From positions 1 to 56,873 of IMG/VR virus record IMGVR_UViG_3300025809_000002: DNA of 56,873 nt. One strand, given 5' to 3'. Each line of letters opens with the position of its first letter. Position 1 is the stretch's first letter. Below the pieces are notes generated by a model that was not told the origin of the DNA, made no database searches, and worked only from the letters and a program-made list of their open reading frames with translations. Shown in pieces: positions 17,527 through 55,178 of the stretch. The stretch is from a virus. The translations under genes were made by a program, and so were the position numbers.

Positions 17527-17603
17527 CTGTCCCTAGCTCAATCGGATAGAGCAACAGCCTTCTAAGCTGTAGGTTGCTGGTTCAATTCCAGCGGGGCAGG
17601 CCA
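17527..17603 (+). tRNA. tRNA-Arg (anticodon TCT)
   Basis: A full cloverleaf of 77 bases: acceptor CTGTCCC/GGGGCAG (one G-U pair), D stem GCTC/GAGC, anticodon stem ACAGC/GCTGT with loop CTTCTAA, T stem GCTGG/CCAGC with loop TTCAATT, discriminator G and an encoded CCA. It reads AGA, a codon used often in the late genes. It fills the gap between the two convergent units exactly: the upstream stop ends at 17526 and the last leftward gene stops at 17604. Confidence 0.95.
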
Positions 17604-40078: not shown

Positions 40079-40089
40079 TTGTTTTCTCC

Positions 40090-41646: not shown

Positions 41647-42353
41647 TAAATAATTCTACCGCTTAAAGGTCTAGATGATAAAGCTGTTGACGTAATATAC
41701 AACGGCTCATCCAGATACAAACGACGCATCGTCTTAATACCTTGATCAAATCTTGTCTGATGGATAGAAGCACTTTGTTCGTTAGAGCGATACACCATCA
41801 TGTATACCATCGCTCCATCTAATATAACGCTAGAGAATCGGTCAGGAATAATACATACATCATCAGCAGCCACCATGTTAGCAGGGAAAGACCAGTATTT
41901 GTATTCAATCTCATAAGCACGATCAGGAAGAGGCGTGACACCAAATTTAAGATCTTGTGTCTGATAAACATAGCGGGGAGAGTTATACCCTCCAACACCA
42001 TTCAAATCATCTTGTGGGCGATACTTGCTGATGTAGTCAACATAGCTCAACGTATCCAGCTTACCCGGCTGATTAATACTATCAAATGTTTTAAGGTAGA
42101 AGCTCTCCCAATCAACACTAGACATATCAGCAGGAAAATCGTATACAGATTGACCAATGGTCATTGTCTGTGTATAAGTCTGCAGAGTGAAAGGCCACTC
42201 CTGTGCCACATGTAAGATTTCTCTAACGGATGAATTGATAGCGGTTTTAGCAAGAGCTTGAATATTACGTGCGGTTGGAAGCTCAGATGAGTCCATCGGC
42301 ACTTCGCCCAAGCGTTGTAGCAATTCATTCGTTAAAGAAAGGTAGGTAGCCAT
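41646..42353 (-). CDS. Tail tubular protein A-like (T7 gp11)
   Basis: 235 residues. TYLSLTNELLQRLGEVP at the start, AKTAINSSVREILHVAQEWPF, YDFPADMSSVDWESFYLK and a C-terminal helical part with PRYVYQTQDLKFGVTPLPD correspond to the gatekeeper/adaptor ring of short-tailed phages. It sits between the capsid gene and tubular protein B. Confidence 0.85.
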   Translation of the reverse strand: MATYLSLTNELLQRLGEVPMDSSELPTARNIQALAKTAINSSVREILHVAQEWPFTLQTYTQTMTIGQSVYDFPADMSSVDWESFYLKTFDSINQPGKLDTLSYVDYISKYRPQDDLNGVGGYNSPRYVYQTQDLKFGVTPLPDRAYEIEYKYWSFPANMVAADDVCIIPDRFSSVILDGAMVYMMVYRSNEQSASIHQTRFDQGIKTMRRLYLDEPLYITSTALSSRPLSGRII

Positions 42354-42365
42354 AATAATATATAA

Positions 42366-42400
42366 GTAAAAAGAAGGAACCGCCGCAGAGCAGCAGTCCC
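42366..42400 (-). terminator. Intrinsic terminator after the capsid gene
   Basis: On the leftward strand GGGACTGC pairs with GCGGTTCC (eight pairs, two G-U) around a nine-base loop, followed by TTCTTTTT. It begins 15 bases after the capsid stop. This would end most capsid messages while allowing some read-through to the tail genes. Confidence 0.75.
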
Positions 42401-42414
42401 CTCTCAGTCAGCGT

Positions 42415-43482
42415 TTAGGCTACGTTGTAAGCAGCCGTCACGATGCCTTCAGGACGAAGGATCTTGCGACCGTACAAGTGCATGCCACGAACGATGTCAG
42501 CAAAGCTGTCGGGATCACGGTAAGACTCAGTCTTAGTGATCTGCTCAGCCGTTGCAACTGCGCTTTGATGACCAGCGGTAAGAACACCGTAGTTGGTATC
42601 TTGCTCAGTAGCACCAGCAGTGCCAGCACCAGTGCCGATCTGTGGCAAGTTGTTAGACACATACACTTTGAAACCGTGCAAGTTGTTCAACACCAAGCCG
42701 TTCTGCATACCAGAACCACCGAAGTCACCGTTCAACAAACGGCTGTCCTCGTCCTTCAACATTTCCATGAAGACAGGATCGACAACCAACCAGCGACCGT
42801 TGCTGTCAACGAACTTCTGGTCCAACAAACGAGCCATACGAGCAACCAGCATCAAAGGAGATACAGTAGTCGTAGGGATGGAAGTTGCACCGGGAAGGCG
42901 AGGAGCCAACGGAATAGAGCCACCAGTAGAGGCGCTAGTCAAGTTGCTGAATGACTCACGGAAAAGCTTCATAGAAGCCAACAGTTCGTCAGCACCAGCA
43001 GTGGTGTCAGCCTTAGTACCAGCAGGAGCGGTACGGGCAGTGTCAGCCACGCCGTTCTTGGCAGACTGCTTGAAGCCAGTCATGTAACCAAGGATGTCTT
43101 GGTCATAGTTGTCACGCAGGCGATAACCAGCACGTTCGGTGGACAGAGACATCCAGTTCACATGTGAGTGAGCGGCTTCAATGTCATCAACCTTGAATGC
43201 GAAGTAGTTGCCTTGGTCAACAACCAGCGTGAAGTCAGCATCGTCGATGTCATCAGGTGCAATCGTCGTGCCACGGTTATACGCCTTTACTGAGATTTCA
43301 GGTTCTTTAATAATACGAACACTGTCACCGTAGTTAGCGATCTCACCGAAGTAGTCGTTGTTAGTGATGGCTTCTGCGATAGAAGACTTACGGAAAGCAA
43401 GTTGAACCTGCTTGGAATAAATTACGGGGCTGAAGTTGCCATTAGGCAAGTTCGTGTAACCCGCTGCGGATGGGAAAGCCAT
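42415..43482 (-). CDS. Major capsid protein
   Basis: 355 residues, suitable for an HK97-fold coat. IYSKQVQLAFRKSSIAEAIT, GDSVRIIKEPEISVKAYNRG, DYDQ-type helical regions and WLVVDPVFMEMLKDEDSRLL are typical of podovirus coat proteins of this type. It follows the scaffold gene and has its own strong promoter, long leader, AAGGAG ribosome site and terminator, as expected for the most abundant protein. Codon use (AAC, GGT, CGT, TTC) is the most biased in the window. Confidence 0.85.
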   Translation of the reverse strand: MAFPSAAGYTNLPNGNFSPVIYSKQVQLAFRKSSIAEAITNNDYFGEIANYGDSVRIIKEPEISVKAYNRGTTIAPDDIDDADFTLVVDQGNYFAFKVDDIEAAHSHVNWMSLSTERAGYRLRDNYDQDILGYMTGFKQSAKNGVADTARTAPAGTKADTTAGADELLASMKLFRESFSNLTSASTGGSIPLAPRLPGATSIPTTTVSPLMLVARMARLLDQKFVDSNGRWLVVDPVFMEMLKDEDSRLLNGDFGGSGMQNGLVLNNLHGFKVYVSNNLPQIGTGAGTAGATEQDTNYGVLTAGHQSAVATAEQITKTESYRDPDSFADIVRGMHLYGRKILRPEGIVTAAYNVA

Positions 43483-43734
43483 TATATATCTCCTTGATGT
43501 TAGGCTTAATTCACTGAAATACCTACTCAGGGCCGTACTCGTTTAGGTGGCTAATACAGAAAGTTCTAGATTCTTTCTGCATTAACGGCTAAAGGTACTG
43601 GGTTGTCTCGTAGCCTATAGACAGTGATACATAGGACATTTCTGTCCGTTTTGGGTTAGGCTTAAAGGTGTGTCTCTAGAAGACGGCTTTGTTGCCTAGT
43701 GAGGAGAAGGGGAGAATTCCCCAACCCCTAGTAA
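43483..43734 (-). promoter_or_regulatory. Structured 5' leader of the capsid gene
   Basis: A 252-base gene-free stretch between the capsid start and its promoter. It has a 12-pair hairpin (43552-43563 with 43573-43584, one G-U), a five-pair GGACA/TGTCC hairpin (43634-43647) and an 11-base direct repeat GTTAGGCTTAA (43499-43509 and 43655-43665) flanking them. The second repeat copy lies just ahead of the ribosome site. It may regulate translation or stability of the capsid message; no open reading frame of note. Confidence 0.5.
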
Positions 43735-43763
43735 GTTATACAGAAGTATTCACTTTCTGTCAA
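43735..43763 (-). promoter_or_regulatory. Sigma70 promoter of the capsid gene
   Basis: Leftward TTGACA (plus-strand 43758-43763), 17-base spacer, TATAAC (43735-43740), preceded by CTG as in the two leftward control-region promoters. The predicted start is near 43728, giving a 246-base leader. It lies seven bases after the scaffold stop codon. Confidence 0.85.
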
Positions 43764-43770
43764 CTAATTT

Positions 43771-44619
43771 TTAACGTGCATTTCCTGTAACGTCATACAC
43801 GAATTTATTGGTGCGCTGTGCCGTTAGGATTGCCTCAGCATTTTTTTCAAACTCGTTCATAGACATCTTCTCCACCTGACTCTCATAGATGAGACCTTCA
43901 GTGTTGGCAGCAGATGGTGCCGAGCGTGAGCCTCGACCAATAGCAGAAGCTAAATCTTTGTCAGAAGTTTTCTTACTAGCTTTAATACCTTTGTCTGACT
44001 TATAGAGATCAATAGCTCTAGCCGCAGCTTTTGCATCAGTATCATTGTCATACAAAGCTTGCTGTACCCAATTAGGTTGTTCTTCAACCCATTCATGAAA
44101 TTCATCTTGATCACGTATTTCTCCAAAATCAGGGTGCAGGCGTGTCAGCTCAACTTCTGCTTTTTCTCTAGCATTGTTTTTCTCAGCTTCATCAATCTTC
44201 TTCAGCCGATCTTCAATACCAGTGGATTGTTCTTTTGCTTTCTTAATTGCAATTGTTTCTACAATCTTGTAGACATCAGGGTACTCTGACGCCCAAGCAT
44301 TAAGTTCGTCTTCTGACTTAGGTAGACGAATTTCTTTCTTGGTTGTTTTTGTTAGTTGTTCTTTTAAAGAATCAATCTGCGTTTGCAGGTCATCTTGCAA
44401 CTTTTGACTATGGCGACGAAGGTCACCGTAGCGTTTCTTAAATGTCCTCTCTTCAGAACCCTCTGGTTCTTTCTCGTCATCGTCTTTCTCAACAGGGTTT
44501 TCTCTAGCCTCTGTCAGCGCTTTAATCTCTTCCTCTGTTTGACGAATTCTTTCTTCACTAGCATTACGCCGTCCAAATGCAACCACTGGTTTTGCAACAG
44601 GTATAATAACTTCACTCAT
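43771..44619 (-). CDS. Capsid scaffolding protein
   Basis: 282 residues, very charged and helical (EEIKALTEARENPVEKDDDEKE, KLQDDLQTQIDSLKEQLT), with an acidic N-terminal half and a basic C-terminus. Location directly before the major capsid gene and low sequence complexity are typical for podovirus scaffolds. ATG 44619 follows TAAAGGAAAAAAG. Confidence 0.8.
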   Translation of the reverse strand: MSEVIIPVAKPVVAFGRRNASEERIRQTEEEIKALTEARENPVEKDDDEKEPEGSEERTFKKRYGDLRRHSQKLQDDLQTQIDSLKEQLTKTTKKEIRLPKSEDELNAWASEYPDVYKIVETIAIKKAKEQSTGIEDRLKKIDEAEKNNAREKAEVELTRLHPDFGEIRDQDEFHEWVEEQPNWVQQALYDNDTDAKAAARAIDLYKSDKGIKASKKTSDKDLASAIGRGSRSAPSAANTEGLIYESQVEKMSMNEFEKNAEAILTAQRTNKFVYDVTGNAR

Positions 44620-44744
44620 CTTTTTTCCTTTAAGTTGGGGCTAACAGTAGCAACACTCTGTGTTGGGAATTAGGTAGCCATTGACGGTGGGTTGTTGTTG
44701 AGTATTGGTCAGCCCACCACTGATCCCAATATTTATATTATATC

Positions 44745-46190
44745 TTATTTCTTAGCAGCTAAACCTTTTTTAGTAGGTTTTGCTTTTGCAGGACGTTTCT
44801 TTACCATACCGCCTTTAGCCATATTACCGGCATCATCTTCCTCACCGTATCCGCCGGAGCCATCATCCATGCTAAAGCCGCCGGGGGTTTCACCACCGCT
44901 AGGGCTAGAGCTATAAACGTTAGGGTTGGAGCTAACGGGTGCTGAAGGCCTACCGGGGTCTGCCGCATCAGGATTAACTTCGTTGGCATCTACATCGGTG
45001 CCTTTAGCACTTTCAGTACCAACAACCGAGGCAATCTCTCCATTGCTATTATAGGTAACAATCGCATTCGGGTTTGAAGAGTCTACACCTTTAAGTGCTT
45101 TATCATATAAAGATTTTTGTGCTTTAGCGTATGGCGTCTCAGGGATAAAAGAAAACTTTGATCGTGCATAGGTTGCTACTTTTGCAGCTGCCTTAGCTGC
45201 TGTTGGGTTTTGTGCGTAGAATTGAGCTAGCTTACCATAATCAGTTTCTGTCGTTGCTTGCGTTTCTCCGCTTCCGCTTACGTCTGTAATAGATTTAGCA
45301 GCTTCTTTTTCATCAGCGGCTTTACCTACAAGTTTTTCTACAGGTTCTTTTGTTTCTTTAAAACCTTCAGGAATAGATGTAGAAGGTTTACCATTTAAGT
45401 ATGTAATAAACATAACCCTGCCATCAGGGTGTTTAAAATATCTTACATCTACAACAGGGTTCTTAGTCCAATCCATCTTAGTAGCATCAGCTTCTGTAAC
45501 AATACCCCCAAGAGCAAACCCTTCTGGCATTGCGTCATCACCTTCTTCTGCCATGATGTCATCAATCTCTGCTTCAAAATCTTCATCACCTTGTTCGCTA
45601 AATGTTTGGTCAGGATTTGCAACTTCCTCAGCATTCCCCATCTGGCCCATTTCGTTCATACGTTGTAGGCCCTGCTTTGCTTTATCCCGCATAGCCATCA
45701 GCTTCTCTAGGCCAATGTAACGAACAACATCAGCAGGCACAACAAACTCGCCCTCGCTAAGCTGTGCTGGAATATCATCAGCAACTTCTTCTCGTAAAGA
45801 ACCCGGAGGAACTTCTACACCGTTGACGCTTTCGCCACTGTCATCCATCATGCCGCCTTCGGCGAATAGTTTATTCATTTGTTCCACGTTGCCACCCTTT
45901 GCATATTTCTCTGGAGCATTAGCGCCCCCTGCATCTGATTTTCTAATAGCATCATCTACAGCTTCTTTAATAGACTCAAAAGATCTATACTCGTTTTTAG
46001 TATTTAAAGCATTCTCAATTGCTTCATCTTCGGATACAATCTGACCGTTCCAAAGTGAAGGAATGTTTGTGGGCTTACCTTTGTTTAAGCGGGGGTCTGT
46101 GACAGTGATACTAACCTCACTCATATCTTCACCTGAATCGCTCTTAACAGTAGGAAGACCATCGTGTGTCTTTAAATTATTTTGACCCAT
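44745..46190 (-). CDS. Head-region structural protein with AKGG motifs
   Basis: 481 residues from ATG 46190; a second ATG lies three codons upstream (46199), but AAGGGA is better spaced for 46190. The N-terminal half has TDPRLNKGKPTNIPSLWNGQIV, a segment also known from phage/lysozyme-type proteins. Then PAQLSEGEFVVPADVVRYIGLEK, a conserved pattern of head proteins in environmental podoviruses. KYAKGGN, FAEGGMM, FALGGIV and a final MAKGGMVKKR repeat a glycine motif seen in other virion proteins here. The C-terminus is Lys/Pro-rich. Function unknown. Confidence 0.6.
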   Translation of the reverse strand: MGQNNLKTHDGLPTVKSDSGEDMSEVSITVTDPRLNKGKPTNIPSLWNGQIVSEDEAIENALNTKNEYRSFESIKEAVDDAIRKSDAGGANAPEKYAKGGNVEQMNKLFAEGGMMDDSGESVNGVEVPPGSLREEVADDIPAQLSEGEFVVPADVVRYIGLEKLMAMRDKAKQGLQRMNEMGQMGNAEEVANPDQTFSEQGDEDFEAEIDDIMAEEGDDAMPEGFALGGIVTEADATKMDWTKNPVVDVRYFKHPDGRVMFITYLNGKPSTSIPEGFKETKEPVEKLVGKAADEKEAAKSITDVSGSGETQATTETDYGKLAQFYAQNPTAAKAAAKVATYARSKFSFIPETPYAKAQKSLYDKALKGVDSSNPNAIVTYNSNGEIASVVGTESAKGTDVDANEVNPDAADPGRPSAPVSSNPNVYSSSPSGGETPGGFSMDDGSGGYGEEDDAGNMAKGGMVKKRPAKAKPTKKGLAAKK

Positions 46191-46392
46191 TAATTTCATC
46201 CCTTAATTGCTTCAGCTTCTTAAGAGCCATGACTGCGCCTTGTGCCCTGTGTATTTCTACAGTATTGGTGGCCTGCTCTAAAGACTTCTGCTGAATGCTG
46301 GTGTAATAATCAACCATATCTTCAAAGGCTTGCCACTGAGTAGGAGCTGAGACCAGAGGCTTTAAAGCACTTAGCCACTTCTTCTCTGTCAT
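46177..46392 (-). CDS. Small helical head-region protein
   Basis: 71 residues, helical throughout (QWQAFEDMVDYYTSIQQKSL, AVMALKKLKQLRDE). Short coupled genes of this type follow the portal gene in T7-like and marine podoviruses. It overlaps the portal gene by four bases. Confidence 0.65.
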   Translation of the reverse strand: MTEKKWLSALKPLVSAPTQWQAFEDMVDYYTSIQQKSLEQATNTVEIHRAQGAVMALKKLKQLRDEINGSK

Positions 46393-48506
46393 TGCATCGG
46401 TCCTTGTGGAGCCGCTGGTGCAGCAGGAGGTGCTGCCTGTGCAGGAGCGCCACTAAATCCTTGCTCACCCGGAGCAGGTGCTGTACCCACGCCCATGTTG
46501 CCGCCACCACCACCAGAAGTATCTGACACAGGAGGAGGACCACCAGCACCAGCAGCAGCTGGCTCAGGGGCTGGTTGCATCTTCTGCAGAATCAACGCCT
46601 GTCTAGCTGCTTCGTCCATGTTGTTCGCCACCAAGTCGGGATCAAGATCCATACTCTTAGCAATTTCACGCACAATGTAAGGCAGCTTAGCAAATGGAGC
46701 CAGTGCAGGGTTCTGAATAACTTGTAAGAATTGCAGCAGACGCTGTGAGCGCACTTCGTTCTGCATCAAGCTTTCAGTACCACGGGCTTTAACTTCTAAG
46801 TCACCAGCAGCTTCTGGGTCATAATCAAACTGCATGTTAAAGGCAAAGAAAGCCTCTCCCATTGGACGCAGTAGATAATCATCCACGTTCTTAATCACAG
46901 TCTTGATGCCGCCGCTTGCCGCATTCATCAGCATAGAGATGCCAGAGGCTGTGCGTCCAACACCAGCTACGCCAGTTTGACCGTGCGAGAATGAAGGAAG
47001 ACCTGTAGACTCATCAGCAAGCTGCCGTGCTTTGTCAAACATCTGCAGGTTTTCTTGCGAGACGTTGGGGAACTTAGTACCAAAAAGCGCTTGACCGGGT
47101 GCGCCCCCTTGTCGGCGAAACACTTTGCCGGGGTGGATGGTTAAGTCTTGACCGGGAACAAGGTTTGTTTCATCAACCTCAAACACAAGATTGCCCGACA
47201 GGACCGCATTATCCACCGACAGACGCATAAACCCATTCATAAGAGTTTGGGTATCATCCATGTTCTCGGCGATACCGACACCAAAAAAGGAGTAGGGGTT
47301 TAGTTCATATGGAACAGCATAATACGGAATCCTGACGGGCTTAAAAGGATTTAAAACAAGACGGATAATCTTACCATTGGTAAACCAGATGTTAGCTTGC
47401 AACTCGGGCATATCTTCTAACTCTTTAGGAATCTTAATGTCATTCTGCTCTAAGAGTTCAACATCAACAACGCCCCAGTACTCTAACACCTCATAACGCT
47501 CAACACCAGTGTCAGTTTGATAATCATTTAAATCATCTTCCCAAGATTTCTTAACATAGTCAGGACCATTAGCAATCACCATGTCAATGACGTTGCTACG
47601 AAACATAGGACGCTTCTTCAGCCCACGCAACTGTGTGCTGCTCATCTTATGACGCTCAATAAAGTATTGCATCTCATCAGTGTTGCTGGCGTCAGGATCA
47701 GGGTACGCATTCCACACACTTACATGAGAAGTTTGTGGCATTGTCTTGATGATGGGATTATATTTACCTTCTTCGTCCCATCGTGGATATTCTTTATCCA
47801 CAGCAAAAGGACCCTTCATAATACCTGTACCAAACAGCGCCATCTCAAAAGCAGCAGATCGTAGTTGCTTGTTGGCGTTGCTCTCGTCAAGCTGGTCCAT
47901 AATCTTCTTCTGCATCTTCTTAGCAGCAACCATCGCCGGGTGGAAAGTGACTGAAGTTGGTGTTGCGCCTGCACCTTCTTTAACGTCTAGCTCAGCAAGC
48001 TTCTCTTTCAAAGGACCAAGCATATCTGCTAGTGATGTTGCAGTGGCACCTTTAGGAAAGTCTTTACCGTCTCCTTTATAGCCAAACAATGAAGATTGTT
48101 CTTCTGGCATATCTGCCATCTTAGGGTCAGCCTCAACGTGTACGCTCTCAGCTACACCCTCTGGTAGGATGGTGGGTTCAATAGAAAGAGGGAATGTATT
48201 ATTAGCAAACAATACATCAGTGATCTGACCATACGCAGCTAGAGTCTTAGTCTTTGTAACTTTTATAAAGACACGACTCTTCTCTGCCTCAGTAAATTGA
48301 ACGTCAGTGCCGTAGATTCCACGATAGTTGCGATACGCACGGAGCCAACGATCTTCGTCAGAGCGACGAGCATCCTCAGCACGGGAGAAGCGCTCATCCA
48401 AAAAGGCCATCAAGCCATTAGCTTGTAATATATCTTCGTAGACATCCTTGCTGTCAGGAAGTCCTACAGCTTTATCATCCATAAAAGGGGTGTCAGATTT
48501 GTTCAT
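46389..48506 (-). CDS. Portal protein
   Basis: 705 residues, within the size range of podovirus portals. It begins with a helical domain (FLDERFSRAEDARRSDEDRW, RAYRNYRGIYG), then a central alpha/beta part with YPDPDASNTDEMQYFIERH and PVRIPYYAVPYELNPYSFFG. The clip-like helical region with TASGISMLMNAASGGIK follows, and a Pro/Gly/Ala-rich tail. It forms the dodecameric ring at the tail vertex. The C-terminal tail (about 635-705) is low complexity. No Shine-Dalgarno sequence precedes its ATG (see the -10-like box upstream). Confidence 0.9.
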   Translation of the reverse strand: MNKSDTPFMDDKAVGLPDSKDVYEDILQANGLMAFLDERFSRAEDARRSDEDRWLRAYRNYRGIYGTDVQFTEAEKSRVFIKVTKTKTLAAYGQITDVLFANNTFPLSIEPTILPEGVAESVHVEADPKMADMPEEQSSLFGYKGDGKDFPKGATATSLADMLGPLKEKLAELDVKEGAGATPTSVTFHPAMVAAKKMQKKIMDQLDESNANKQLRSAAFEMALFGTGIMKGPFAVDKEYPRWDEEGKYNPIIKTMPQTSHVSVWNAYPDPDASNTDEMQYFIERHKMSSTQLRGLKKRPMFRSNVIDMVIANGPDYVKKSWEDDLNDYQTDTGVERYEVLEYWGVVDVELLEQNDIKIPKELEDMPELQANIWFTNGKIIRLVLNPFKPVRIPYYAVPYELNPYSFFGVGIAENMDDTQTLMNGFMRLSVDNAVLSGNLVFEVDETNLVPGQDLTIHPGKVFRRQGGAPGQALFGTKFPNVSQENLQMFDKARQLADESTGLPSFSHGQTGVAGVGRTASGISMLMNAASGGIKTVIKNVDDYLLRPMGEAFFAFNMQFDYDPEAAGDLEVKARGTESLMQNEVRSQRLLQFLQVIQNPALAPFAKLPYIVREIAKSMDLDPDLVANNMDEAARQALILQKMQPAPEPAAAGAGGPPPVSDTSGGGGGNMGVGTAPAPGEQGFSGAPAQAAPPAAPAAPQGPMQ

Positions 48507-48512
48507 GTTTTA

Positions 48513-48518
48513 GTTATA
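48513..48518 (-). promoter_or_regulatory. Possible extended -10 box abutting the portal start
   Basis: Leftward TGGTATAAC (TATAAC at 48513-48518) lies six bases before the portal ATG (48506). No -35 match is seen. If used, transcription would start at the ATG, giving a leaderless message, which fits the missing ribosome site. Weak evidence alone. Confidence 0.3.
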
Positions 48519-48528
48519 CCATAAATTA

Positions 48529-49938
48529 TTAGTAACCAAAAGTTTTATCTGTTGGTTGATACACACGTTGTGAAGCTGGATTGTAATCAAAAATGCTTGA
48601 ACTACGTGGGCGAGACATAAGACCATAACGTAGGGCGTCATAGGTGTGGTCATTCTTAACCTTAGTGTCTACGTCTTCTACGTTTGTTTTATCAAGAGGC
48701 AGCGAAGGCAAGTCAGCAATAAGCTGAGTGCAGTTGCTAAAGATTGTCATTCGGGGTGCTTCGGTGAACGGATCAATCTGCAAGCGACGATGCACCTCGT
48801 TCTTACCAGCCACACGGCTACCAGCACTCCTATCAGCAGGACGCCAACGGCACCCCTTCATAATCATACGTTCAGCAATAGAAGGACCAGTGTCGCCCCG
48901 CTTATGCCAGCAGCTACTATCCAACACACCGTAACGAATTGGTTCATTATCTTCCATTTCTAGCACCATATTGGCTAAATCTTCTGCCAATACCTTAGTG
49001 ACGTAAAGTTCACGGTATACAACGATGGACTCATCAGGAGCAACAGCAAACCAAATAACAGCGGAGAAACTTCCATAACCATAATCACAAGCCCTAAAAC
49101 GTACCCAATCTCTTGGGATGGCATAGGGTTCTACAACGTGTATGGCCCTGTTAAACTCAGAGAATGCTGCACCTTCTGCAACATCCCAGTTACCATCAAG
49201 CAATTGCTTGCGCTGATGCTCTGGCAATGACAGCAACATCGTCTCATAGTCGCCAGTCTGTGCCAGATGCGGGTTGTCCACCAGTTTTGCTGGTATAAAC
49301 CTACGTTTAAATAGGGGGTCTCCCTCTTTACTGTGTCCTGTAGGGTAGGTCATCACCTCCCCTGTCTCTGTATCCGTGGCCCAGAAGGACTTACCTGCTG
49401 GTGAAGGGTCAATAAAGGTCTTCTTAACCCACGAATGCCCCTTGTTACCGGGGTTTGTTGACGCTCTCATGTACACAGGCAGGTCTGGTGCCGTGCTACG
49501 TAAGCGTGAACGCATATAATTCCACGCAAAAGGCGTTGCCCACTGCGTAAGCTCGTCAAATCCTATCCAACTGAAGGAAAGTCCTTGATATCTTAAGACA
49601 TCTTCGTCCCTATCTAGGTAGGACATCCACAATCTACCCCCACTTGGGGCTTCCCACTGCATCTTTCGCTCACTCCACTTGATGCCGGGGTAGATTTTGG
49701 GGTATAGCTCTTGGCTTTTCCAAATAAGTTCCCGTAATTCCTCTGTAGTGTGGCGCAAAAGCAGCCCAGAAAACTGTGGGTGGGGCAAATACCGCAAAGG
49801 ATCTGCCAACATTGCGTAGGATTTACCTCCACCAGCAGCTCCACCGTACAAAACCTCCCTATCTGCCGCCGCCAGAAACGCTGTCTGCGGTCCGGGGTTG
49901 GGAGCAAAGATAATATTCTCATTCTCTGCTGTCGGCAA
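48529..49938 (-). CDS. terL: Terminase large subunit
   Basis: 469 residues if begun at TTG 49938. A longer frame runs up to GTG 50109 (526 residues), but it overlaps the previous gene by 191 bases and gives a Ser/Lys-rich segment unlike terminases. Walker A is GGAAGGGKS (31-39), Walker B lies in SFSWIGFDELT, and the C-terminal nuclease begins with RACDYGYG. It pumps DNA into the prohead. Start remains uncertain. Confidence 0.9.
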   Translation of the reverse strand: MPTAENENIIFAPNPGPQTAFLAAADREVLYGGAAGGGKSYAMLADPLRYLPHPQFSGLLLRHTTEELRELIWKSQELYPKIYPGIKWSERKMQWEAPSGGRLWMSYLDRDEDVLRYQGLSFSWIGFDELTQWATPFAWNYMRSRLRSTAPDLPVYMRASTNPGNKGHSWVKKTFIDPSPAGKSFWATDTETGEVMTYPTGHSKEGDPLFKRRFIPAKLVDNPHLAQTGDYETMLLSLPEHQRKQLLDGNWDVAEGAAFSEFNRAIHVVEPYAIPRDWVRFRACDYGYGSFSAVIWFAVAPDESIVVYRELYVTKVLAEDLANMVLEMEDNEPIRYGVLDSSCWHKRGDTGPSIAERMIMKGCRWRPADRSAGSRVAGKNEVHRRLQIDPFTEAPRMTIFSNCTQLIADLPSLPLDKTNVEDVDTKVKNDHTYDALRYGLMSRPRSSSIFDYNPASQRVYQPTDKTFGY

Positions 49939-50395
49939 GCTCTGTAGCTGCCCGCTCTCTGAGGGCGACGTAATGATCGCTGCGGAAGAAGGGGTTGGTT
50001 TCTTTGCGCTTTGTTTTTTCTTCGTACTCTTCAATTTTGTTGAGCGCTTGCGTGAGCCTTCGGGCAAGCTCCCTGTAGTATCTAGCTTTGCTCTTATAGG
50101 ACTGCTCACTTCTTACCCTTTTTAATAACCCTGTGTAGGTGATGCTCCTGCCTGTTCTTGTTGTTAACCAAGCTGCTACCTGTCTGGCGCTGTATTTCTT
50201 TAAATGCTTCTTTGCCTGCTCTAGAAAGTCTAGCTCCAGCGGGATCGGCTTCCATACTCCCTCATCGTCTGGGTCCTCTTCGTATCCAAACGGTGCAACC
50301 ACGTAGTTGATGGGCTTAGGAATAGACACCCATACATCCTCTTCACGAGGCTGAGGCAATATCCAAGTACCGAAGTCTCTTTCATTCTGCTGCAT
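49919..50395 (-). CDS. Conserved phage protein between TerS and TerL
   Basis: 158 residues: a beta start with TWILPQPREEDVWVSIPKP, a VWKPIPLELDFLEQAKKHLK link, then YSARQVAAWLTTRTGRSITYTGLLKRVR, a clear helix-turn-helix, and a basic helical tail. Proteins like this occur next to terminase genes in marine podoviruses. A DNA-recognition role in packaging is possible. It overlaps TerS by 14 bases. Confidence 0.7.
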   Translation of the reverse strand: MQQNERDFGTWILPQPREEDVWVSIPKPINYVVAPFGYEEDPDDEGVWKPIPLELDFLEQAKKHLKKYSARQVAAWLTTRTGRSITYTGLLKRVRSEQSYKSKARYYRELARRLTQALNKIEEYEEKTKRKETNPFFRSDHYVALRERAATELADSRE

Positions 50396-50750
50396 CTTTT
50401 GCTGGGAGAATCATGATACCGTTGCTGGCCTGAATCTCCATCTTCTCTGTCTTAACAACACCTGCACGATCTAACAGATCTTTAGCAGCGTTAAGCTTCT
50501 CTTTGATGCCAAGCTCTGTTGGGTCAACCAATCCACTAACAACTGCCATTGCCGCTCTAGGAGCGTTGGTTGCAATGTACAGCTGAGTGGCCTCAATGAT
50601 CTCTGCCTTCAGTGTGTCCATGATCATCTTAGTGGCGTAGCCTTCGCTGTAGCCAGCAAGCTTACGAGCCTTTGCAGGGTTGCCACCAGCCTCTCCGAAA
50701 AGCACCTCAATGAATTTCTGCTGCTGTTCGTTTAATTCTCTCTTAGCCAT
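50382..50750 (-). CDS. terS: Terminase small subunit
   Basis: 122 residues. LNEQQQKFIEVLFGEAGGNPAKARKLAGYS and YATKMIMDTLKAEIIEATQLY match the small terminase pattern with its N-terminal HTH (the GN..KA....GYS box). A helical oligomerisation part and a tail with MEIQASNGIMILPAKD follow. It recognises phage DNA for packaging, and it stands upstream of TerL as expected. Confidence 0.8.
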   Translation of the reverse strand: MAKRELNEQQQKFIEVLFGEAGGNPAKARKLAGYSEGYATKMIMDTLKAEIIEATQLYIATNAPRAAMAVVSGLVDPTELGIKEKLNAAKDLLDRAGVVKTEKMEIQASNGIMILPAKDAAE

Positions 50751-50761
50751 ATTGTCTCTCT

Positions 50762-51115
50762 TTATTGTCTAGATGTGGGGTCGTAATATTCTTCAACAGT
50801 GAGGGTGGCATCAATGGTGGAGCCTGCCTCTGGTGTGAAGCAGATGTGGTCACCAGCATTCAATGTTAAATAGCTACCATCTAGCTTTAAGAAGTTGTAA
50901 GCAGAAATAACATAGCCGCCAATAATATAAAATTCTGAGTCGCTGTGTGAATTGTACCATTTAATAGCTAGTGTTTTATTACCACTGCCTAGGTTGGCAG
51001 CAAACAGCAACACAATATGTGAGGTGTAGTTATTGGGGCAGGTGTAGACGATGTTTTCCACACCCGCCGTGAGCTGCATGCCCACACTTCTACTCTTGAA
51101 GATGTTGCGATCCAT
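50762..51115 (-). CDS. Beta-structured virion protein
   Basis: 117 residues, beta-rich (GMQLTAGVENIVYTCPNNYT, HICFTPEAGSTIDATLTVEEY). Similar small proteins occur near packaging genes in environmental podoviruses and may decorate the head or tail. It overlaps its neighbour by one base. Confidence 0.65.
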   Translation of the reverse strand: MDRNIFKSRSVGMQLTAGVENIVYTCPNNYTSHIVLLFAANLGSGNKTLAIKWYNSHSDSEFYIIGGYVISAYNFLKLDGSYLTLNAGDHICFTPEAGSTIDATLTVEEYYDPTSRQ

Positions 51116-51825
51116 TACTTCTTCTTGCCAGTTTCTTCACGAGCTTTCTTTTGCAAAGCTTTTTTCTTAGCAGCCATCTTGTCTTGCTCAGCTCTAAACT
51201 CAGCTTGACTTTGAATAGGCTTCAGTGCTGCTTTAGGTTTATCTTTCTTAGCGGGAGCATCTCGGCGAGTTAAACCACGCTCTTTATTTAATAAATCCCT
51301 TAGCGTTTTATCTGTACCATACTTCTTCTTAAAAGCGTCCAGCTCTGCTTTGCTAACAAACACCTTACCGTTCTTAACTTCTCTACCACCAAGCATTTTC
51401 TTCTCAGTTTTAGGCGCTGCTTTAGGCGTTATTTTAGGGGCTGCTTTTTCCTTTGTTGTTGAACCACTAGGTGCTACACCGCCACGGCTATCTTTAGCTT
51501 CTGCTTTAGGTTTAGCTTTTGCTTCAGCTTTATCTTTAATCGCTGACACAGCACCTACTCCTGCGGCGGCTACATTCGCTGCTGCCGCTGCTTTCGCAAC
51601 ACCACTTGAACCTTTTGATTTTTTTGCTGCCGCTGCTGCTTCTTTAGCAATATCTCTAACAGGGCCTCCTTGACCTTTTGCTTTTTCTACCTGCTTTGCT
51701 ATACGCAATATTGATGCATCAGTTACATCATTCATGTTTAGGTCTTTAAGCTTCTTACCCTTCTTTAAGGCAGAAGCGCCTCTAGCGAGAAAAGGTGCCG
51801 CTCTAACTATTAGTGGTAATACCAT
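51115..51825 (-). CDS. Lys/Ala-rich protein, probable virion or DNA-binding
   Basis: 236 residues, strongly basic, with low-complexity AAAAKKS and KAEAKAKPKAEAKD runs, a KMLGGREVKNGKVFVSKAEL segment and a basic tail. Composition resembles histone-H1-like tails and suggests DNA binding or disorder. No defined domain except the short KFVSKAELDAFKKKYG-like helix. Confidence 0.6.
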   Translation of the reverse strand: MVLPLIVRAAPFLARGASALKKGKKLKDLNMNDVTDASILRIAKQVEKAKGQGGPVRDIAKEAAAAAKKSKGSSGVAKAAAAANVAAAGVGAVSAIKDKAEAKAKPKAEAKDSRGGVAPSGSTTKEKAAPKITPKAAPKTEKKMLGGREVKNGKVFVSKAELDAFKKKYGTDKTLRDLLNKERGLTRRDAPAKKDKPKAALKPIQSQAEFRAEQDKMAAKKKALQKKAREETGKKK

Positions 51826-51827
51826 GA

Positions 51828-52265
51828 TTATTTACTCCCTGATGCTTTAACACTAGCTCCGCAATTTGCGTAGCCGCCTTTTGCCATCTTCTTAGCTGGC
51901 TTCTTTTTATCCGTCAAACCAACCATCACAGCAACCACTGGTGACTGGCGGGTCATCTCTTTCTTAGCAGCAGGCTTCTTAACAGCACCACCTTTAGCCA
52001 TAGCACTGTCCTTCATCATGCTGCCGTCCGGCATCTTGTGCATGCCTTTCATTTTAGTGGCATCGCCCCCGTACATGTAGCCCTTCTTCTTAACAGCACC
52101 ACCCTTAGCCATTGTCTCACCGCCCTTAACAGCCTTGTCATAGAACTCAAGCTCAATGGCGTTGGCTCTATCTAACATCTCATTACGAGCTTCCTGTGGA
52201 ATGCTCTTGTCTTTTGCTTGCGCTCTTAAACGCTTAATCTCTGCTGCCGCTGCTTTCTTGTCCAT
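51828..52265 (-). CDS. Basic protein with repeated MAKGG motifs
   Basis: 145 residues. A helical N-terminus (EIKRLRAQAKDKSIPQEARN) is followed by three MAKGGA/Y motifs, a methionine/glycine-rich GYMYGGDATKMKGMHKMPDG part and Lys-rich linkers. The motif recurs in three large virion proteins of this genome, so this is probably packaged too. Function unknown. Confidence 0.65.
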   Translation of the reverse strand: MDKKAAAAEIKRLRAQAKDKSIPQEARNEMLDRANAIELEFYDKAVKGGETMAKGGAVKKKGYMYGGDATKMKGMHKMPDGSMMKDSAMAKGGAVKKPAAKKEMTRQSPVVAVMVGLTDKKKPAKKMAKGGYANCGASVKASGSK

Positions 52266-52290
52266 TTTGTTTCCTTGGGGTTGTTAATCG

Positions 52291-52677
52291 TTATGCACGA
52301 TACTTCTTTGCTTTATCAGCCACCTTCTGGGGCTGCTTAACAAACTGCTTACCTGCCTTATTGCCAGCGGCTTTAGCAGCATTCGTCGCCTTCTTCTCAG
52401 AGGCCGTCAACGAATTCCATGCCTTCTCAGGCAAATATCTTTTCTTCCCCTCTGACGGCTTACCATCCGAGGTGGTCCACTTCTCTTTTGTCCATTTGCT
52501 TAGGCTCTTCTGCTGACCCGTCTTAGCGCCACTGTAGCCGCCACCAGCCTTCTTATATTCAGCTGCCAATAGCTGGGCCTTCCTAGCACTCCATTCGCCA
52601 GCGTCGCCCCCTTTAGAGGACGCCATCACCTTCTTCTTCAACCGCTCACGCAGCTCTGGTTTTGTATAACTCACCAC
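52291..52677 (-). CDS. DUF5872-like basic protein
   Basis: 128 residues. YTKPELRERLKKKVMASSKGG, EWSARKAQLLAAEYKKAGGGY and KWTKEKWTTSDGKP...RYLPEKAW match DUF5872, a family of small basic proteins found in phages and giant viruses. Highly basic, so DNA or RNA association is possible. It overlaps the previous gene by seven bases. Confidence 0.7.
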   Translation of the reverse strand: MVSYTKPELRERLKKKVMASSKGGDAGEWSARKAQLLAAEYKKAGGGYSGAKTGQQKSLSKWTKEKWTTSDGKPSEGKKRYLPEKAWNSLTASEKKATNAAKAAGNKAGKQFVKQPQKVADKAKKYRA

Positions 52678-52940
52678 TTAACCTTGTCTGCCCAGTAGGC
52701 CGCTGACGTCTTGCCTTTAGAAATGTTAGACGCATGACGGGCTTTAAAGCTTTTCTGCCTAGCCTTGTCCTTGGCTGTTGATGGCGCTGCACCAGCACCT
52801 TTAACACCCTGCTGTCCAAACCTAATTAGCTTAACTGTGTCACCTTCCTTCGCCAACACAGCATGGCTCTTCGTTGGGTGGTTGGGGGTTCGCTTTGGCT
52901 TGTTATAGCCAGAGAATTCTTCAGCGCCTCTTTTAATCAT
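52671..52940 (-). CDS. Small basic protein (DUF6321-like)
   Basis: 89 residues. FSGYNKPKRTPNHPTKSHAV, KLIRFGQQGVKG and RQKSFKARHASNISKGK...AYWADKVKW form the pattern often seen next to the DUF5872 gene. Such pairs are probably virion or DNA-processing proteins; unproven. It overlaps a very small gene by four bases. Confidence 0.65.
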   Translation of the reverse strand: MIKRGAEEFSGYNKPKRTPNHPTKSHAVLAKEGDTVKLIRFGQQGVKGAGAAPSTAKDKARQKSFKARHASNISKGKTSAAYWADKVKW

Positions 52941-53104
52941 TTTGTAACATCGTAGTGACAGAAAGCAGTGAAAGGGTTTTCTTTGTCTTGGTTAACCAGC
53001 AGCACCTTGTTAACACACTCTTGCTCTGTAGCTATGGAAATATTATGTACCACCTTAATCTCTCCTGTCGGGAAGAACAGCATCAGCACCAAAGCTATCT
53101 TCAT
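52937..53104 (-). CDS. Very small secreted-like protein
   Basis: 55 residues, ATG at 53104. It overlaps both neighbours by four bases (ATGA), the best evidence for reality. The first 13 residues (MKIALVLMLFFPT) are a signal peptide or membrane anchor; a short region with two cysteines follows. Possibly a periplasmic peptide; function unknown. Confidence 0.7.
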   Translation of the reverse strand: MKIALVLMLFFPTGEIKVVHNISIATEQECVNKVLLVNQDKENPFTAFCHYDVTK

Positions 53105-53331
53105 TTCTTACTCCAGCCTTCTGCCTTCATAGCCTTCTCCACCTGTGGCAGAGGAATAACAAACCCTGTGTTCTTCTCCAAAGCAGCTCTAACATAATAC
53201 ACATCACTGTGGTAGAGAGAAACACTATCCATCTTATCTTTAGCAATAGCCGTCATAGCTGCACTGTAGACAGAGAAGGGAGGTATGTTTAACAATCCTT
53301 CTTCTTCTAGTTGTTGTCTTGTCTTTAACAT
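53101..53331 (-). CDS. First leftward gene; small protein from a likely leaderless message
   Basis: 76 residues from ATG 53331. A longer in-frame extension to 53421 would cross the promoter, so it is rejected. Sequence: NIPPFSVYSAAMTAIAKDKM and LYHSDVYYVRAALEKNTGF, a pattern I associate with small conserved proteins of environmental podoviruses. There is no ribosome site, and the ATG coincides with the predicted transcription start of a perfect promoter. Confidence 0.75.
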   Translation of the reverse strand: MLKTRQQLEEEGLLNIPPFSVYSAAMTAIAKDKMDSVSLYHSDVYYVRAALEKNTGFVIPLPQVEKAMKAEGWSKK

Positions 53332-53337
53332 ATACCT

Positions 53338-53366
53338 ATTATACAGTAATACTTTAGTCTTGTCAA
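53338..53366 (-). promoter_or_regulatory. Perfect sigma70 promoter for the leftward unit
   Basis: Leftward TTGACA (53361-53366), 17-base spacer, TATAAT (53338-53343), matching consensus at all 12 positions. Six bases separate TATAAT from ATG 53331, so the message would begin at the start codon. It is the most upstream promoter for the structural genes that I can see, except the RNA promoter at 53885. Confidence 0.9.
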
Positions 53367-53431
53367 GACATAGGCTTCCTAAAGGTGGTATAGAGCAGAT
53401 GTCTATACCAACCTGTCCCAATGCTGTGTGG

Positions 53432-53606
53432 TCTGTAGATAAGAGATAAGAAGATAACCATTAGTAATTATCTTATGTTCTTAGCTACATCCTTTGTTCT
53501 TATCACATAGTGAAATAGATCTGTAGATAAGAGATATAAGATAATCTATTAGATTATTATTCTTAATCCCTGCTACTTCCTATGTCAATATCACATTGTG
53601 AAAGAC
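53432..53606. repeat. 88-bp imperfect tandem repeat
   Basis: Two units (53432-53519 and 53520-53606) begin with TCTGTAGATAAGAGATA and end with TATCACATnGTGAAA. The AT-rich middle differs more than the ends. The end box in unit 2 is a palindrome, TCACATTGTGA. Iteron-like repeats of this kind mark origins or operator arrays. It lies 66 bases upstream of the perfect leftward promoter. Confidence 0.85.
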
Positions 53607-53690
53607 AAGACGTTAAACACAGCACCTAGAAATCCCATAAGGAATATGTTCTTTTATGGTAGTCGTTAGGTCCACCCCCATTGGCAACTA
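53607..53690. other. Gene-free spacer with small hairpin
   Basis: No open frame with a ribosome site. CCATAA (53635-53640) can pair with TTATGG (53654-53659). GTTAGGTC occurs twice, at about 53665 and 53714. If the RNA beginning near 53878 reads through, this would be its 3' part. Confidence 0.4.
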
Positions 53691-53878
53691 CTTTTAACCT
53701 ATACCCATATTAAGTTAGGTCTGGACAGTGCAAGGTGTGAACACTGCCAGTGTACGAGCTTGATAGAGAAGTTGGCCTACCCCTCTACCAGTCCGTGTCT
53801 TTTCTCTTCAGCAGCCGATGCAAGCTCATTGTTTCATAGCACCCAGAAGGTAGGCTGTCACAGAAATCTGTGGCTATG
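53691..53878 (-). ncRNA. Candidate structured noncoding RNA with kissing loops
   Basis: Leftward. Its predicted first base (53878) coincides with the first base of helix 1. Helices in plus coordinates: H1 53873-53878/53835-53840; H1a 53868-53872/53859-53863; H2 53821-53827/53756-53762 (seven pairs); H2a 53802-53807/53765-53770; H3 53742-53750/53721-53730 (nine pairs, one bulge); H4 53716-53720/53697-53701. GGTAGGC (53849-53855) in the loop part of H1 is complementary to GCCTACC (53775-53781) in the loop of H2a, a seven-pair tertiary contact. No coding frame fits. The fold is from reading by eye and needs covariation support. Confidence 0.6.
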
Positions 53879-53884
53879 GGGTAT

Positions 53885-53913
53885 GTTATACAGATTTTTT
53901 GCAGCGGTGTCAA
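53885..53913 (-). promoter_or_regulatory. Sigma70 promoter of the structured RNA
   Basis: Leftward TTGACA (53908-53913), 17-base spacer, TATAAC (53885-53890), preceded by CTG as in the other leftward promoters. Six bases separate TATAAC from 53878, where helix 1 of the folded RNA begins. It may also feed the structural genes. Confidence 0.85.
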
Positions 53914-54054
53914 CAAGTTTTTGTAAAAAGTTTTCTTGGTCCTGTAGGGGGCCTTCATATTCTAACCTTTATTGTAGGTAATAAAAGGTGTTCTTAAGTT
54001 ATTATGTCAGTTGTGCAGATGAACTGTACGTATACACAGTGTCCAATCTAAAAA

Positions 54055-54173
54055 ACCCCGTGTGTGGGCGAGGCTGTATATATATAACGCCCACCCCCCA
54101 CCTGTCCCACACCCCCGCCCCCTCTGGCAAGCCTGCGCTCGCCGGCGCATGAGTGACTACGTCACGGCGCAGG
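54055..54173. other. GC-rich cluster of nested inverted repeats
   Basis: AAAAAACCCC at 54050-54059 precedes GTGGGCG (54064-54070) pairing with CGCCCAC (54088-54094) around a TATATATA loop. The C-rich stretch follows, then CCTGCGC (54132-54138) with GCGCAGG (54167-54173) enclosing GTGAC-tac-GTCAC (54153-54165). The local GC content is well above the genome. It could be a bidirectional terminator or insulator between the two units, or part of an origin. Confidence 0.5.
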
Positions 54174-54251
54174 TAGATCTTTATGGACTCCCTGAATTCA
54201 CTTGAATACAAAGATCTTCAATGCATTCAAAGGGTTAGAAAATCCTTGGCA

Positions 54252-54281
54252 ACTGATTCAAAATCAGTGTCCTACGGAAAT
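54252..54281 (+). other. tRNA-Leu-like anticodon and variable arm, candidate attachment core
   Basis: ACTGA-TTCAAAA-TCAGT (54252-54268) has the exact form of a tRNA-Leu(CAA) anticodon arm: five-pair stem, seven-base loop, anticodon CAA. GTCCTACGGA follows like a short variable arm. No acceptor, D or T arms are present, so it is not a tRNA gene. Phages that integrate in tRNA genes carry such partial identity as attP. It is 6.8 kb (via the junction) from the integrase start. Confidence 0.35.
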
Positions 54282-54558
54282 TAGGGACAGAAAACTGCTC
54301 ATTTTTTAAGCACACCCCGTGAAAACCCTAAGTCGGTGTATAATTTTTTGTAGTACTGTCCGATGTAATACTTTCCAGCTTTTATTAACTACGTTAATAG
54401 TCTTTGATACTACCATTGGCAGAACCGCCGATTTCCCCTTACGAAGTAAAGAACCGTGCCAACTTTTTCCTCACAGCTTTGCTGTCATGTGTGACGCCTA
54501 CATCATGATGATCGTGCGAGGCAAACCGACATCGCCGAAAAATGCCGCCGAAAATTAC

Positions 54559-54621
54559 GTCTTTATATTTTTAATTTTTCTCTTAAGCAAAGCGAAAGAG
54601 GAAAAATTTAAATATAAAGAC
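54559..54621. other. Large AT-rich hairpin
   Basis: Arms of about 24 bases, GTCTTTATATTT... and ...AAATATAAAGAC, pair nearly perfectly around AAGCAAAGCGA. A run of CGCCGA repeats (54426, 54533, 54545, 54646) surrounds it. Possible replication-origin cruciform or protein-binding palindrome. No gene fits this part of the region, despite an open frame at 54319-54666. Confidence 0.6.
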
Positions 54622-54763
54622 TTTAGAGAAAACCACTTTCAAATCCGCCGAATATCACTTCGGTAACAGCAAAGCTGTGAAGCATCGCTGACTGATCATT
54701 AACAATCTACGATTGCCGTCAGTATGCTCTGGTGACAGCGGAGCTGAAATTGGGCAACCTTGC

Positions 54764-54866
54764 TATGACATAGGTTAAAGTCATAGGCATTCTGGTAGAT
54801 GATTCGGATAATCTGCCCATGCTACAGCATAGCTGATTGGGGTCGGTTGGCACTGACTGCTGTAGC
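54764..54866. other. Two inverted repeats upstream of the first early promoter
   Basis: TATGAC (54764-54769) pairs with GTCATA (54780-54785). GCTACAGCA (54821-54829) pairs perfectly with TGCTGTAGC (54858-54866) across 28 bases. The second stands 12 bases before the GGGTTTTC box of the promoter at 54878. They may be regulator-binding sites. Confidence 0.45.
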
Positions 54867-54877
54867 AGAAAACAAAA

Positions 54878-54923
54878 TAGGGGTTTTCCCTTATAGCAAT
54901 GCCCTGAATTGCGTTGTTATAAT
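54878..54923 (+). promoter_or_regulatory. Rightward early promoter element, copy 1
   Basis: TAGGGGTTTTCCC then TATAGCAATGC and, 37 bases after the first G of GGGTTT (54881), TATAAT at 54918-54923 with TG before it (extended -10). TTATAGCAATGC and GCGTTGTTATAA form an imperfect inverted repeat across the promoter. It drives the first early gene at 54972. Confidence 0.75.
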
Positions 54924-54971
54924 GGAGGCTCTTCGGCAATGTCGCCGCTATTTATCCTGAAAGGATACACA

Positions 54972-55178
54972 ATGAAACTCATATCCAAAACCCAAGTCAC
55001 TATTGGCACTGAAGACTTCCTTGTAAAGGTTTACAAGGACAGCGATTGGAACGAATATGTTTGCCGTTTATTTATAAACGGTACTGAAAACAAAGACGCC
55101 TCTTATCATACTGATGATAAGTTGGATGCACTGGATACAGCTGTTGCAATGCTTCGTTTTGCTTCGGTAACTGCTTAA
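54972..55178 (+). CDS. First early gene; small protein of unknown function
   Basis: 68 residues; ATG at 54972 after CCTGAAAGGATACACA. A longer frame upstream would cross the promoter. The product is beta-rich then helical (KTQVTIGTEDFLVKVYKDSD, DALDTAVAMLRF). No family recognised. It probably acts first after DNA entry, since it has the strongest rightward promoter. Confidence 0.7.
   Translation: MKLISKTQVTIGTEDFLVKVYKDSDWNEYVCRLFINGTENKDASYHTDDKLDALDTAVAMLRFASVTA

Follow-up and report, generated by a model that had tools for sequence, protein, structure and literature searches.

Genomic Context of the RNA

The analysed window, i.e., the whole stretch of 56,873 bases, belongs to a tailed phage with genes for an SU10-type portal protein, terminase, family A DNA polymerase, primase-helicase and ribonucleotide reductase. 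The phage is distantly related to Roseobacter phage CRP-13, which is its nearest isolate according to the portal gene. A real structured RNA is encoded in its control region, on the minus strand between 53878 and 53367, and relatives of this RNA were found in approximately 80 viral contigs, which fall into seven sequence groups (A–G).

In every locus examined, the RNA is co-directional with an operon and lies ahead of it. In the window this is the leftward structural operon, as had been stated in the initial annotation. In groups A–F the RNA heads the structural/terminase operon, usually opposite a divergent early operon, while in the temperate group G it is located after a cro-like gene and before the genes for a replication initiator and RusA. 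The cro-like genes of L210 and L206 were recognised by eye, and that of L217 is annotated as cro. In locus L126 the strand carrying the RNA runs on to the portal gene, with a ParB/methyltransferase gene in between.

Several other features of the window were recorded. A second conserved noncoding block (54049–54320) is present within the control region, on its early side, and contains TATATATA, a C-rich stretch and TTCAATGCATTCAA...CTGATTCAAAATC. It shares 60–75% identity with many contigs, including some without a detectable RNA, and is possibly the early promoter region or an origin. A strong terminator-like hairpin (−16.7 kcal/mol, followed by TTCTTTTT) lies between two genes of the leftward operon at ~42375 on the minus strand. 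A tRNA-Arg (TCT) gene occupies positions 17527–17603 (plus strand), where two convergent operons meet, and the early operon carries a gene of the ADP-ribosylglycohydrolase family and, after it, one for a tyrosine recombinase (phage integrase) (3445–5387, plus strand).

Promoter and Extent of the RNA

The initial annotation placed a possible structured RNA at 53691–53913, behind a TTGACA-17-TATAAC promoter pointing left. This promoter is present at 53913–53885 on the minus strand, and the predicted transcription start (~53878) is, as was claimed, the first base of the foldable RNA, where the 5′ hairpin domain begins. The same arrangement is kept upstream of the relatives: TTGACA-17-TATAAC in L134, TTGACA-16-TAAAAC in L147, TTGACA-17-TAAAAC in L138, TTGACA-18-TATAAC in L003 and TTGACA-17-TAGAGT in L211. 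The RNA itself is longer than first described, as it extends from ~53878 to 53367, and the interval noted earlier holds its first part only. Across the family, the RNA measures ~330–510 nt and the core alone 117–207 nt. The features of the element are listed in Table 1.

Table 1. Features of the structured RNA and its promoters in the window.
Feature	Position	Strand	Basis and remarks
−35 hexamer TTGACA of the RNA's promoter	53908–53913	−	Kept in groups A–D and F
−10 hexamer TATAAC	53885–53890	−	17-nt spacer after TTGACA
5′ domain: CAUAGC/GCUAUG closing hairpins CACAG/CUGUG and GCCUA/UGGGU	53835–53878	−	Fold; group-specific, sequence differs in B
Conserved core (extent of model R1)	53623–53829	−	Covariance model; R2 covers 53750–53634
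P0 hairpin AGCU-UGCAUC-GGCU	53813–53826	−	Near-invariant; AGCC/GGCU in F, GGCC/GGCU in G
P1, 5′ strand	53803–53812	−	Partner 53632–53624; RNAalifold; one two-sided change (L003)
P2 variable hairpin, 17 pairs	53754–53796	−	14 pairs two-sided; compensated variation in A–C; missing in L003
P3 hairpin CUGGCAGUG/CACUG.CCAG	53721–53750	−	Loop with conserved CACC (53737–53734); covariation alignments
P4, 5′ strand ACCUA	53716–53720	−	Partner UAGGU, 53701–53697; 96.4% of cells paired, 4 of 5 pairs two-sided (31 cores)
P5, 5′ strand AAUAUG	53706–53711	−	Partner CAUAUU, 53648–53643, crosses P4; 98.8% of cells paired, 6 of 6 pairs two-sided
P6 hairpin GUAGUUG/CGACUAC	53659–53691	−	Loop with conserved GGUGG (53676–53672); 7 of 7 pairs two-sided
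P7 short hairpin CC-UUAU-GG	53635–53642	−	RNAalifold consensus
Group-specific middle	53432–53603	−	Fold; two copies of a ~88-nt direct repeat (78% identical), long stem
3′ domain	53367–53586	−	Closed by GACAUAGG (53586–53579)/CCUAUGUC (53374–53367); region of z −4.13
Universal 3′ hairpin AGGU-UGGUAUAGA...UCUAUACCACCU	53383–53414	−	GG.UGGUAU...AUACCA.CC in A; placed alike in nearly all of 15 representatives
Shine-Dalgarno-like AGGA (53380–53377) and AUG (53371–53369)	53369–53380	−	Frame of two codons in the window, Met-Ser-stop
Second promoter TTGACA-17-TATAAT, at the RNA 3′ end	53338–53366	−	Perfect consensus; same in L134, similar in L003 and L056

Relatives and Sequence Groups

The first relatives were fetched via the proteins adjoining the element; their noncoding region is 60–73% identical to that of the window, and near-identical contigs were obtained as well. 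A 23-mer from the core, ATCGGCTGCTGAAGAGAAAAGAC, has exact matches in 59 contigs. The covariance model R1, built from 20 aligned cores, recovered L056 (117.7 bits), L113 (46.9) and L126 (22.8), none of which belonged to its training set. A motif derived from L113 and L126 matched 12 viral contigs and thereby added ten new ones, and a motif derived from those gave seven more. Likewise, L225–L231 were matched by a model not trained on them, with E values between 1e-7 and 1e-16.

Group A gathers the window and L150/L134, and group B consists of L147 and ~55 others. Groups C, D and E are represented by L138, L003 and L056, respectively. Group F comprises L113, L208, L211–L213 and L215, and group G comprises L126, L206, L209, L210, L214, L216, L217 and L225–L231. 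The weak model matches L069, L070, L007 and L080 were not accepted as members. The match L218 in a genome contig proved to be a multiheme cytochrome gene, and L224, retrieved with the 3′-hairpin pattern, is a chance match in coding sequence.

Structure of the Core

The RNAalifold consensus of the 20 aligned cores contains 56 pairs, 26 of which show two-sided changes. With the pseudoknot included, 95.7% of the cells in the same alignment are paired and 29 of 61 pairs are two-sided, against a mean of 13 in shuffles; 0 of 500 shuffles reached the real value. The analysis of 31 cores (28 distinct rows from all seven groups) showed two-sided changes at 26 of the 27 pairs tested, so the compensatory changes whose absence would have spoken against an RNA are abundant. 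In these cores 82.9% of cells are paired, compared with 57.6% in shuffles and 27–37% with slid partners, and 211 cells are two-sided compared with 81 in shuffles; none of 500 shuffles matched the real alignment on any measure. The 31-core alignment was fitted to the nested helices of R2 and is thus biased towards them, but P4 lies outside the model and still pairs.

From 5′ to 3′, the order of elements in the 31 sequences is P3, P4 5′ strand, P5 5′ strand, P4 3′ strand, P6, P5 3′ strand and P7. The crossing of P4 and P5 is an H-type pseudoknot with the P6 hairpin inserted between its strands, and two-sided changes occur at 10 of the 11 pairs of the two helices together. P5 reads AAUAUG/CAUAUU in the window, GGUGUA/UACACC in group F, GAUUGA/UCAAUC in group G and UAGCGA/UCGCUA in L225. 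The P6 helix has a mean length of 8.1 bp with its own partner strand and 4.7 bp with a partner taken from another sequence. The core carries group-specific insertions of 1–2 nt, which are incompatible with a conserved reading frame; it is therefore noncoding, in agreement with the earlier claim that no coding frame fits.

The initial annotation traced six helices and a seven-pair contact between two loops (GGTAGGC, 53849–53855, with GCCTACC, 53775–53781). Covariation confirms that several helices are real, but the proposed contact, although it can form in the window, is absent from the near relative L134/L150 and from the other groups and is therefore not supported.

The folding energy of the single sequence, compared with shuffles, was weak to borderline for the core. 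The z value was −1.47 for 53600–53880 (minus strand), with 17 of 200 shuffles folding equally well, and −1.62 for the core region 53623–53878. At z values of only −1.5 to −1.6, single-sequence energy was dropped as a proof of the core, and the status of the RNA is settled by the comparative evidence, i.e., by covariation in the relatives. The region just 3′ of the core (53366–53600, minus strand) folds much better than shuffled sequences (z −4.13, 0 of 200).

3′ Domain and Start Codon

By inspection, helices matching the closing stem of the 3′ domain were found in L138 (GACAUA/UAUGUC) and L056 (GCAUAC/GUAUGC). The 3′ end has the same layout group by group: a hairpin, then an A/G-rich stretch, then AUG or GUG. 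In nearly all matched haplotypes, this codon is situated 16–17 nt after the start of the CCACC sequence.

In group G, the AUG/GUG at the end of the RNA opens downstream genes with mutually unrelated N-termini. It starts a replication initiator in L126, L206, L210 and L229 (phrog_9474 for L126 and L210) and a protein of 119–122 aa with the sequence IYRDKSLLK, unrelated to the initiator, in L226, L227 and L230. The frame is DNA-methyltransferase-like in L214 (read by eye), 248 aa long in L231 and 72 aa long in L228. Because unrelated genes start at this codon, the RNA appears to act as a portable leader that carries its own start codon. In groups A–E, most frames opened by the AUG/GUG have just 2–17 codons, so the codon may be structural there; those of A, C and E have 2–4 codons, and there the codon was seen by inspection to lie inside the helix closing the 3′ domain.

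A separate consensus promoter is located at or near the 3′ end of the RNA in groups A, D and E, which would make the operon independent of the leader in these groups. In group A it ends 6 nt before the ATG of a 76-aa gene (53331–53101), the mRNA of which would be leaderless.

Group G loci also contain a further conserved element upstream of the core, after a promoter (L217, L225–L231, L126, L206 and L210). It consists of two crossing helices, e.g., GUGGAAA/UUUCCAC and GCCGUUUAC/GUAAACGGC in L226, and the second is followed by a U-tract, resembling an intrinsic terminator. This element may be a small regulatory RNA or an attenuator near the boundary of cro and the replication genes.

Two loop contacts within the RNA are treated here as hypotheses. 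In 16 of 16 representatives, the P6-loop sequence GGUGG is complementary to the CCACC of the 3′ hairpin (duplexes of −10 to −17 kcal/mol), and this pairing shows no covariation, as permuted partners pair equally well (fraction 0.55). A kissing contact of the P3 and P6 loops (CACC:GGUG) is likewise possible; its complementarity is invariant or nearly so, and the permutation of partners gives it no covariation support.

Comparison with Known RNA Families and Search for Other Carriers

The scan of the window and seven relatives against Rfam 15 (cmscan) gave nothing at the gathering score except the distant tRNA-Arg, and with permissive settings the regions of the window, L211 and L210 returned chance-level unrelated matches only. 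Together with the covariation, this bears out the initial description of an undescribed structured RNA. No match was obtained with the covariance models of GOLLD, ROOL and the phi29 pRNA, and ARAGORN detected no tmRNA, one- or two-piece, with tRNA-like domain and tag frame, at the RNA loci. No tRNA gene lies near the RNA in the window, where the only one is at 17527, or in most of the other loci. The downstream genes differ between groups, and an aptamer placed before the genes of one pathway, as expected of a metabolite riboswitch, was not observed.

A BLAST search of 50,697 phage records gave a sole match, MW202484, which comes from a spring metagenome; searches of phage records with L003 and L211 gave chance matches, and the region 40,000–55,022 of Roseobacter phage CRP-13 gave none. 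Model R2 (E ≤ 0.001) had no match among 399 genomes from a single order or 398 from the phylum, nor had the group G pattern in 369 genomes of the class, these sets being a sample of host genomes centred on a Burkholderiaceae genome. We found no published description of the RNA in a search that covered few of the subscription journals, so this absence is not proof. The family matches nothing that was tested; "new" refers to the RNA class, and the mode of action may prove to be a known one, such as that of a leader or an antiterminator.

GOLLD and ROOL are large phage RNAs that contain pseudoknots, combine conserved parts with variable ones, have as yet no assigned function and are associated with tRNA islands (PMC12286853). 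The present RNA is likewise a large phage RNA with a pseudoknot and a division into conserved and variable parts, but it is smaller, has no Rfam match and is found behind a promoter at operon heads rather than in tRNA islands. The phi29 pRNA is also a phage RNA, and some groups of the present family likewise lie near packaging genes, but neither sequence nor structure matches and the position of the present RNA is not tied to the terminase. The cobalamin riboswitch is an example of a translational riboswitch in which a loop contacts the ribosome site. The present RNA shares with such riboswitches a folded core and a loop complementary to a hairpin beside the ribosome site, but it differs from them in its sequence and helices, its downstream genes do not form one pathway and no ligand is known.

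Possible Function

With the promoter, structure, pseudoknot, position and start codon established by computation, the reading that we favour, at somewhat less than an even chance, is that this new phage RNA family heads a long operon as its 5′ leader and acts in cis on the expression of that operon. It is favoured because the RNA recurs at operon heads, its promoter is conserved and a built-in start codon precedes unrelated genes. Of the functions offered initially, a long folded leader or regulatory RNA fits best and a packaging RNA worst. Transcription would begin at the RNA's own sigma-70-type promoter, and the RNA would stay joined to the operon mRNA and act in cis on its operon. As a first choice, the folded core and the 3′ hairpin would set whether ribosomes start at the AUG/GUG, and the pairing of the GGUGG of the P6 loop with the CCACC of the 3′ hairpin would be the switch.

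The main rival is processive antitermination of the kind performed by the put RNA of phage HK022, in which the nascent RNA folds after the promoter, stays on the polymerase and causes terminators to be read through. HK022 put is ~70 nt long with two stem-loops, and the cro/replication region is the site of nutR in lambda and of putR in HK022 (PMC9378689). The present RNA, too, is folded and directly follows a phage promoter. It heads an operon, 36 kb long in the window, and in group G it occupies a nutR/putR-like place between cro and the replication initiator. Moreover, four G members (L217, L228, L229 and L231) have a U-tract just after P7, an intrinsic-terminator-like hairpin occurs before the core in G members, and one strong terminator-like site (~42375) lies inside the window's leftward operon. 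Against this, the RNA is several times larger than put, with its ~330–510 nt, crossing pseudoknot and terminal start codon; the terminator-like hairpin of group G lies before the RNA; the leftward operon has 2 terminator-like sites compared with 3 and 3 on the control strands, i.e., no excess; and the fixed AUG/GUG would be left without a reason. We regard this mechanism as unlikely, though a serious competitor. An independent trans-acting RNA, a regulator or scaffold with its own promoter, a processed or terminated 3′ end and an adjoining gene served by its own promoter, seems to us improbable to a similar degree. The absence of a terminator at the RNA 3′ end in the window speaks against it, as do the invariably co-directional position immediately before an operon and the fact that in group G the conserved 3′ motif contains the start codon of the downstream gene. 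What such an RNA would explain is the consensus leaderless promoter exactly at the RNA 3′ end in group A (similar in D and E), the elaborate pseudoknotted fold and the variety of downstream genes, including the placement of the initiator, which is downstream of the RNA in L126, while its relative in L217 is upstream.

Two further explanations were considered. An origin-associated RNA within the divergent control region, serving as a replication primer or controlling one, would suit the position between divergent early and late operons near the change of sign of the GC skew, as well as the adjoining replication initiator in much of group G; as a different gene follows in L226, L228, L231 and L214 and no positive sign of a primer was seen, we consider it very unlikely. 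Least credible is a packaging RNA like the phi29 pRNA, to which we assign hardly any probability. In group F the RNA is directly followed by a small-terminase-like gene and by that of the large terminase, and in A–E it heads the operon with terminase and portal genes, but this function fits worst because in group G several kb separate the RNA from the terminase and portal genes downstream. Its neighbours there are cro and the replication initiator, a replication context. Moreover, no Rfam family matched, phage packaging RNA included.

To our knowledge, few large structured phage RNAs have been found, and most of them are unexplained. In the family described here, the pseudoknotted core is well supported. 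Its carriers differ in gene layout, with the RNA at the head of a structural operon in some phages and in a cro/replication region in others, and the RNA lies at the switch point of the genome. Beyond the cis-acting leader, it is conceivable, if somewhat less probable, that the family represents a class of viral RNA not known before, which has become distributed over unrelated tailed phages as a portable operon head. A promoter, a pseudoknotted core and a translation start would then together switch on the genes that follow, and an RNA-only mechanism, either control of the translation start or modification of the polymerase, would take the place of a regulatory protein. As the listed loci allow models R1 and R2 to be rebuilt, the distribution and the function of the RNA are directly testable, for example as a phage-encoded operon switch.
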